Source: Aestuariivirga litoralis
Lineage (GTDB): Bacteria; Pseudomonadota; Alphaproteobacteria; Rhizobiales; Aestuariivirgaceae
Reading direction: 5' to 3'
Assembly (NCBI RefSeq): GCF_015714715.1
Contig: NZ_WAHS01000002.1
Coordinates: 124,001-188,000, forward strand
DNA length: 64,000 nt
This document shows, piece after piece, positions 21,061 through 22,045 of the stretch (positions are counted from its first letter, which is position 1; each line of letters starts with the position of its first letter). The notes under the pieces are model-generated. The model was not told the DNA's origin. It saw nothing but the letters and a program-made list of their open reading frames with translations, and did not search any database. A program made the position numbers and the translations under genes.

Positions 21061-21243
21061 ATGGACGCGGACGAACCGATCAAGAAGCCCGGCATGGTTA
21101 TCGGCGAAAACCTGGAAGCGATTTCGGTGGCCGAATTGGAACAGCGTCTTGTGGCTTTGGACTCCGAGTCTGCCCGGATTCGCGCTGAAATCACCAAGAA
21201 ACAGGCCAGCAAGGCCGCCGCCTCAGCCTTTTTCAAATCCTGA
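21061..21243 (+). CDS. DUF1192 family small protein
   Basis: A 60-residue protein of the short DUF1192 family, restricted largely to alphaproteobacteria: an N-terminal segment ending in PGMVIGENLEAISVAELEQRL, then a charged helix that may form a coiled coil. No function is known. It precedes the CtrA box and rcdA on the same strand and diverges from the quinone oxidoreductase gene. Confidence 0.88.
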   Translation: MDADEPIKKPGMVIGENLEAISVAELEQRLVALDSESARIRAEITKKQASKAAASAFFKS

Positions 21244-21263
21244 TGCTCAAATTTACTACAATT

Positions 21264-21278
21264 TTAACGATCGGTTAA
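21264..21278 (+). promoter_or_regulatory. CtrA-binding box
   Basis: TTAACGATCGGTTAA is a perfect match to the CtrA consensus TTAA-N7-TTAA. In alphaproteobacteria such boxes commonly overlap the -35 region of CtrA-activated promoters. Here that places the transcription start near 21300, at the first hairpin of the candidate small RNA. rcdA, downstream, is a CtrA target in Caulobacter. Occupancy is not proven by sequence. Confidence 0.7.
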
Positions 21279-21299
21279 TAATTAATCGTTACCTTAGGG

Positions 21300-21398
21300 T
21301 TCAACCCAGAGCTTCTGGGTTTCTCCGAGTGGTTTTCCACTCTGTTTGACGCCTCCCTGTTAGAAACTCAAAGCCGCGGATGACGCGGCTTTTTTTTG
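21300..21398 (+). ncRNA. Candidate CtrA-controlled small RNA
   Basis: A non-coding stretch of about 99 bases between the CtrA box and rcdA. It holds three hairpins: AACCCAGA/TCTGGGTT (21303-21321, 8 bp, three-base loop), GAGTGG/CCACTC around TTTT (21327-21342), and a terminator hairpin (21371-21398). The linker between the second and third hairpins holds GCCTCCC, complementary to Shine-Dalgarno sequences. A promoter-distance CtrA box in front, and a terminator about 60 bases before the rcdA start, make an independent short transcript the simplest reading. An attenuator leader for rcdA is the alternative. I cannot assign it to a named family. Confidence 0.5.
21371..21398 (+). terminator. Rho-independent terminator of the candidate small RNA
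   Basis: An 8-bp stem AAGCCGCG/CGCGGCTT with a five-base loop, followed directly by a run of T residues. It lies upstream of the rcdA start codon, so it would end transcripts starting at the CtrA box before rcdA. Confidence 0.85.
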
Positions 21399-21460: not shown

Positions 21461-22045
21461 ATGATCGATCTGAAGTTAGTGAGTAATGTGGGTGGGGACG
21501 ACAAGATGGGCGGCACGCAGCCTGAAGCGGTAGCGATTGATTTTTTCGCGCGCTTCACCAATTCCGAGCAGTTTGACAAAACCTTCAAGGAAGGCATGGG
21601 CCTGGTTGAGGAAACCGCCAATTATCTCGATGGCCCCGGCCGCGTTGATGCCCGCACTTTGGACCGCACCGGCGCCATTGCCTATGCCACCGAAAGCATG
21701 CGCCTCACCACCCGCCTGATGCAAATGGCCTCCTGGCTGCTGCTGCAGCGCGCCGTGGCCGCCGGCGAACTCAAATCCAATGAAATTCAACGCGAAAAGC
21801 TGCGCATCAATCTGGGCGACATCGGCGAAGGCAACGTGATCAAGGGCGCGGAACAGCTGCCGCAAGGCCTGCTGGCGCTGGTCGAACATTCCCTGCGCCT
21901 GCTGGAACGCATTCGCACCTTGGACGCCATGCTGAAGGGCCGCGAAACCGCCACCCCAACCCCGGTCGCCAGCCCCGTAAGCGCGCAGATCTCAATGCTG
22001 GAACAGGCCTTCAACCAGAACGCCTTCAGCCTGGGCGGCCGCTAA
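21461..22045 (+). CDS. rcdA: Protease adaptor RcdA, regulator of CtrA degradation (DUF1465)
   Basis: A 194-residue DUF1465 protein; the Caulobacter member RcdA is an adaptor that helps ClpXP degrade CtrA at the G1-S transition. The conserved core runs from IDFFARFTNSEQFDKTFKEGM to IRTLDAML and is largely helical. The C-terminal tail after residue 160 is Pro/Ala-rich and likely flexible. A GANTC site (21424-21428) for CcrM methylation lies 33 bases before the start codon. A terminator separates rcdA from the CtrA box, so it may have its own promoter. Confidence 0.92.
   Translation: MIDLKLVSNVGGDDKMGGTQPEAVAIDFFARFTNSEQFDKTFKEGMGLVEETANYLDGPGRVDARTLDRTGAIAYATESMRLTTRLMQMASWLLLQRAVAAGELKSNEIQREKLRINLGDIGEGNVIKGAEQLPQGLLALVEHSLRLLERIRTLDAMLKGRETATPTPVASPVSAQISMLEQAFNQNAFSLGGR

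Follow-up and report, generated by a model that had tools for sequence, protein, structure and literature searches.

Among the cell-cycle regulators of the Alphaproteobacteria, CtrA has been studied most. BjrC1505 (Rfam RF02356), a little-studied alphaproteobacterial small RNA (sRNA) family, is said to have been described originally by Madhugiri et al. 2012 (RNA Biol.), and is reportedly expressed in Bradyrhizobium. No link between this family and CtrA was found in the literature searched on BjrC1505/RF02356 and on sRNAs together with CtrA and rcdA, a search outside which the founding paper lay. CcnA of Caulobacter crescentus, compared here by description from the available part of its source, is an ncRNA with a predicted CtrA promoter site, and pairs with 5' UTRs through a C-rich loop; its own features are a gene at the replication origin, a CCCC loop A and action on ctrA and gcrA (PMC8959179). 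EcpR1 and GspR of Sinorhizobium are cell-cycle sRNAs of ~100-144 nt from the same order, and in the available sections of the sources they have their own loci (divK-pleD/rpmG; SMc03844/SMc03845), other pairing regions and, as targets, dnaA and gcrA or ctrA and cspA5 (PMC4414408, PMC5928217). According to the same partial sources and one more, GspR is restricted to Sinorhizobium, EcpR1 is stress-driven and CcnA is not clearly found in S. meliloti (PMC5928217, PMC4414408, PMC8959179, PMC7143759). Homology of the RNA described below to EcpR1 or GspR was considered and then dropped, since according to the available text both differ from it in locus and pairing region. Two further Rfam families, suhB/MmgR (RF00519) and SorX (RF02784), share with it a CU-rich anti-Shine-Dalgarno element just before the terminator, and give weak cross-matches to the covariance model built in this work.

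RcdA is established as a degradation adaptor of CtrA (PMC4433202). In S. meliloti, CtrA binding at the rcdA promoter was detected by ChIP-seq and depletion of CtrA leaves rcdA unchanged (PMC4433202), and a CtrA motif was noted upstream of the rcdA transcription start site (PMC3616915); three agrobacterial lineages show several transcription start sites for rcdA, with CtrA sites farther upstream than in Caulobacter (PMC10469942). The accessible portions of these three papers make no mention of an RNA at the rcdA promoter.

The window, by which we mean the whole 64-kb stretch of Aestuariivirga litoralis DNA that was analysed, holds a candidate RNA gene on the forward strand between a DUF1192 gene (21061..21243; an ORF matching PF06698 at 64 bits) and rcdA (21461..22045; PF07323/DUF1465, 177.6 bits), both on the same strand and both conserved neighbours. 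The CtrA-type box TTAACGATCGGTTAA (21264..21278), a putative activator site, is a TTAA-N7-TTAA that occurs once in the window, where 0.09 were expected and 8 of 100 shuffles contained at least one. It is followed by a probable -10 region, TACCTT (21290..21295), placed from a TA column 26-27 nt past the box start in 215 loci. The RNA itself (21301..21398) comprises hairpin 1 (21303..21321) and hairpin 2 (21327..21342; GAGTGG/CCACTC), both supported by folding and covariation, then a weak, G-U-rich third hairpin predicted by folding (21345..21364) with CCUCCC as its six-base loop, and a Rho-independent terminator (21370..21397) made of a stem at 21370-21392 (9 pairs, 6 of them G-C) and a T run. 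GCCTCCC lies at 21351..21357, and the anti-Shine-Dalgarno seed CCUCCCUG at 21352..21359, in the weak hexaloop. Folding of 21299-21398 gave -38.6 kcal/mol, compared with -23.4 (sd 3.4) for shuffled sequences (z -4.4; 0 of 200 as low). With its 5' end placed near 21301 (+/- 3 nt) from the family-wide -10 position, the RNA is probably ~97 nt long. The parts named by the original prediction (box, two hairpins, GCCTCCC, and a terminator before rcdA) are thus all present, although the CCUCCC of the GCCTCCC that it took for single-stranded is placed by the fold in the loop of a weak hairpin.

At 72.9 bits, above the curated cut-off of 50 bits, 21257-21398 aligns to the complete Rfam RF02356 model (positions 1-140 of 140), and this match is the only one in the whole A. 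litoralis genome. By this full-length match and the same hairpin-hairpin-CCUCCC-terminator order, the RNA is a further member of BjrC1505, an already-known Rfam family, from which it differs in sequence divergence only; what the present analysis adds to the family is its CtrA box and its place beside rcdA. The original prediction had located an RNA of roughly 100 nt to nearly exact coordinates from the letters alone and missed its family membership; the Rfam match bears out an sRNA gene there, and the length is refined to the ~97 nt given above. The window scored 16.6 bits with suhB/MmgR RF00519 (cut-off 41) and 15.2 bits with SorX RF02784 (cut-off 46.6), below the threshold in both cases.

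RF02356 was found in 166 of 199 genomes sampled from the order (E<=1e-3), with 139 above the curated cut-off, in 30 of 289 genomes sampled from the class (14 above cut-off), and in 0 of 14 control genomes, Caulobacter vibrioides among them. A covariance model (R2) was built from 37 sequences with the promoter box left out and the structure supplied by hand, and replaced an earlier model (R1) that held the terminator helix only. R2 matched 115 of 385 genomes sampled from the class, the weak matches being partly look-alikes related to suhB/MmgR and SorX, and 53 of 299 genomes in a phylum-wide sample, 52 of them within Alphaproteobacteria; the sole match outside the class in the latter sample came from a genome with 8% contamination (37.5 bits). 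Carriers among the matches listed include Mesorhizobium, Bosea, Devosia, Hyphomicrobium and Chelativorans, and Sneathiella, of the order Sneathiellales and so outside the order sampled, carries the RNA at 81.5 and 84.1 bits. R2 matches below ~45 bits are a mixture of relatives and look-alikes, and inspection covered 48 of the weak or borderline loci. Three distant box-bearing relatives (L182, L183, L154) lie under the BjrC1505 cut-off and have weak suhB or SorX matches as well. R2-type RNAs stand in tandem, no more than a few hundred bases apart, at L175 (1301-1405 and 1501-1606), L208, L214 and L225 and on contig C10 of genome G406 (22-127 and 228-327). In two genomes of one family (L208 in G461, L222 in G239), a second CCTCCCTG-type RNA lacking a box lies ~8.7 kb from the box-bearing copy.

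Covariation was scored in an alignment of 37 diverse sequences (A1), in which 85.2% of cells were paired compared with 40-57% when partners were slid, the scored structure having been read off the same alignment and hence favoured over the slid controls. Sixteen of the 20 modelled pairs changed on both sides, and 0 of 500 shuffles reached any of the five observed values. For hairpin 1, all five modelled pairs changed on both sides and 69% of cells were paired; for hairpin 2, these figures were four of six pairs and 87-91% of cells; and the terminator helix was paired in 92% of cells across the 37 sequences. Poor conservation of the hairpins beside a conserved rcdA, which would have spoken against the original prediction, is thus not what was found. 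Box, hairpins, seed and the place of the RNA between DUF1192 and rcdA are conserved among the relatives compared, in line with that prediction. The eight-base seed CCTCCCTG is exact in 143 of 154 loci, a fair figure, since its invariance in A1 arises by construction from the choice of rows for CCTCCCTG; one of the 11 remaining loci (L093) is cut by a contig end. Seed variants include CTCCCTG in S. meliloti and CCTCTG in Methylobacterium bullatum. Degenerate copies at L362 and L363, from one family of the order, keep the terminator and have CACCTCCAC in place of CCTCCCTG. A near-fixed CU-rich stretch carried on a covarying scaffold looks like a pairing seed, and the features expected of a trans-acting anti-Shine-Dalgarno sRNA, namely a conserved, accessible CU-rich seed, covarying helices and a Rho-independent terminator, occur together here.

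Conservation of the box was counted in loci obtained by reducing 159 loci to the 154 with a nucleotide-profile match and then to the 143 with exact CCTCCCTG, the window's own locus included. At least 7 of 8 box bases with 7-nt spacing were found within 120 nt upstream in 138 of these 143 loci (57 perfect) and fewer than 7 in the other five, counts that are not independent, as the loci are related by descent. The corresponding frequency was 13% in dinucleotide shuffles, 27-56 of 143 with other spacings and 18 of 143 in the 120 nt past the terminator. The RF02356 consensus spans the box region, and the test was therefore repeated with loci found by a core motif, independently of the Rfam model: among the core-motif matches listed (80 named loci of at least 119 stretches), all 80 had at least 7 of 8 box bases, 54 of them perfect, and after removal of the nine named loci that duplicate the first set the result was 71 of 71. 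The six additional genomes examined, four from the genus and two from the family, have a box with 7 of 8 bases as well. Of the 48 weak or borderline R2 matches, 12 were look-alike RNAs with a CGTCTCCC hairpin, none of which had the box (best 5 of 8) and four of which, compared with Rfam, all fell under the curated cut-offs; the other 36 divided into 23 with at least 7 box bases and 13 with fewer.

A logo of 215 loci, which counts duplicated loci twice, reads gTTAACc.tt.gTTAAgc.TT. Since its TA lies ~26 nt and hairpin 1 ~39 nt past the box start, the box overlaps the -35 region, where TTAA-N7-TTAA is conserved at a nearly fixed distance from the RNA; the promoter-distance box of the original prediction is thereby supported across relatives. 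Single box positions deviate in 14-20% of sites. The CtrA consensus of S. meliloti is given as TAA-N7-TTAAC in the portion of the source available (PMC3616915), and ctrA is present in the A. litoralis genome (94% identity over 67 N-terminal residues). Together these sequence comparisons point to this RNA as a widespread CtrA output.

In S. meliloti CP090106.1 (L378), a divergent copy of the RNA (38.7 bits) lies between DUF1192 and rcdA and is preceded by a perfect box (L378 1165-1179). Separately, the stretch from the terminator to rcdA holds another perfect TTAA-N7-TTAA, TTAACCCTTTCTTAA (L378 1339-1353), and the same arrangement occurs at L379, L382, L356 and L357; rcdA in those Rhizobiaceae-type loci may have a CtrA box of its own. 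CP090106.1 (3.72 Mb) is labelled as pSymB of S. meliloti Ak57 and carries DUF1192, rcdA and rpmE, and looks like a mislabelled chromosome; we take rcdA to be chromosomal in other S. meliloti strains. We infer that at least part of the CtrA binding reported at rcdA in S. meliloti serves the RNA, and the divergent copy there may explain why CtrA binds without a change in rcdA expression.

The reading that we consider likely is a stand-alone BjrC1505-family gene whose product is a CtrA-activated, trans-acting anti-Shine-Dalgarno sRNA of ~97 nt, through which the CtrA regulon would act post-transcriptionally, mostly by repression. CtrA would bind TTAA-N7-TTAA over the -35 region and switch the RNA on when CtrA is high, and transcription would stop at the RNA's own terminator ahead of rcdA. 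CCUCCCUG would then pair with purine-rich (AGGGAGG-type) ribosome-binding sites of several mRNAs and block their translation, probably assisted by a chaperone such as Hfq. For candidate targets, starts preceded by AGGGAGG were collected in this genome (32 sites, 30 taken, 17 ORFs of at least 90 aa, including four solute-binding proteins and one ABC permease) and, across nine genomes of the genus, starts preceded by ACAGGGAGG (36 matches, 30 taken, 20 ORFs, including five solute-binding proteins and one permease), the two sets overlapping by one gene (L383 in the latter is L463 in the former). The control ACAAGGAGG yielded 41 matches, 30 taken and 14 ORFs, with one solute-binding protein and two ABC ATPase fragments, and the excess of ABC-importer genes over this control was not significant (one-sided Fisher p 0.19-0.44). 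Apparently orthologous solute-binding protein genes, both after AGGGAGG, occur at L457 in this genome and at L385 in a second genome of this genus, and offer a target lead. Importer candidates of this kind, which stay a lead, recall the AbcR regulon as outlined in the available part of PMC7143759.

The box could alternatively be the promoter of rcdA, the RNA being its 5' leader with an attenuator-like terminator that acts in cis. Gene order fits such an arrangement, as 130 of 154 loci have rcdA downstream in the same orientation (and 106 of the 154 have DUF1192 upstream, contig ends truncating some loci), read-through could feed rcdA too, and CtrA sites have been published as rcdA promoter sites in the source text available (PMC3616915, PMC4433202). 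However, of the 19 loci in which the downstream sequence extends for at least 900 nt without rcdA, 16 retain the box; since the RNA keeps its box where rcdA is missing, a leader or attenuator was rejected as the main reading. The distance from box to seed is tight (85-90 nt in the middle half of loci) whereas the start of the rcdA profile varies (235-305 nt downstream); the box thus follows the RNA rather than rcdA. The strong terminator and the unchanged rcdA expression on CtrA depletion in S. meliloti, as far as the available text goes (PMC4433202), also count against a leader, which we regard as decidedly unlikely. Points against the preferred reading are the five loci and the 13 weak or borderline matches with fewer than 7 box bases, and the genomes in which rcdA occurs alone: among 23 genomes of the order, mostly chosen for absent or weak RNA matches, 16 had no R2 match, eight of them without and eight with rcdA, which shows that rcdA need not be accompanied by a recognisable RNA; of the eight with rcdA, two hold the degenerate copies of L362 and L363 (~21 bits), and in one of the eight the locus lies on a masked contig. 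Less probable still than a leader is a real sRNA whose TTAA-N7-TTAA is bound by a regulator other than CtrA or is simply a promoter element rich in A and T. The 14-20% deviation at single box positions would suit such an element, but the exact 7-nt spacing and position, the absence of the box from all 12 look-alike RNAs, the fit of the logo to the published CtrA consensus (PMC3616915) and the CtrA ChIP-seq signal (PMC4433202) at the S. meliloti rcdA promoter, where the RNA sits, argue for CtrA, with both papers cited from the parts available.

A narrower role was also weighed, in which the RNA, besides acting on other targets, directly represses translation of rcdA or ctrA in a feedback loop. 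Its gene position is consistent with this, as is complementarity to the seed at rcdA starts, where at least 7 contiguous complementary bases were found in 12 of 115 loci compared with 1.4 expected from coding windows, and the mean pairing z was -0.55 compared with 0.11 for coding windows. Any Shine-Dalgarno sequence raises such values, however, and could alone cause the excess; the complementarity is not conserved across loci, and in the window it extends to five contiguous bases for rcdA (z +0.41) and four for ctrA. Direct feedback therefore seems unlikely, and the feedback role that the original prediction had suggested from proximity to rcdA was not established, RNA and box persisting in the rcdA-less loci counted above.

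The trans-acting, CtrA-activated sRNA thus stays the preferred reading. While the RNA family was already known, its apparent, widely conserved link to a CtrA box was not found in the literature searched. If BjrC1505 is a direct target of CtrA, an RNA of the CtrA circuit would be present in the majority of genomes sampled from the order and in some sections of other orders, tractable species included. Such a target would also offer a testable answer to the puzzle posed by S. meliloti, in which CtrA occupies the rcdA promoter and rcdA is unaffected, as the intervening RNA gene may be the real target. We give about even chances to a broader proposal, that the Alphaproteobacteria have in BjrC1505 an ancient RNA output of CtrA, with the box kept in most carrier lineages, and that much of the CtrA binding at rcdA promoters drives the RNA and not rcdA. 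If this proposal is true, the CtrA regulon would gain a conserved arm of translational repression, perhaps with the binding proteins of ABC importers as targets.
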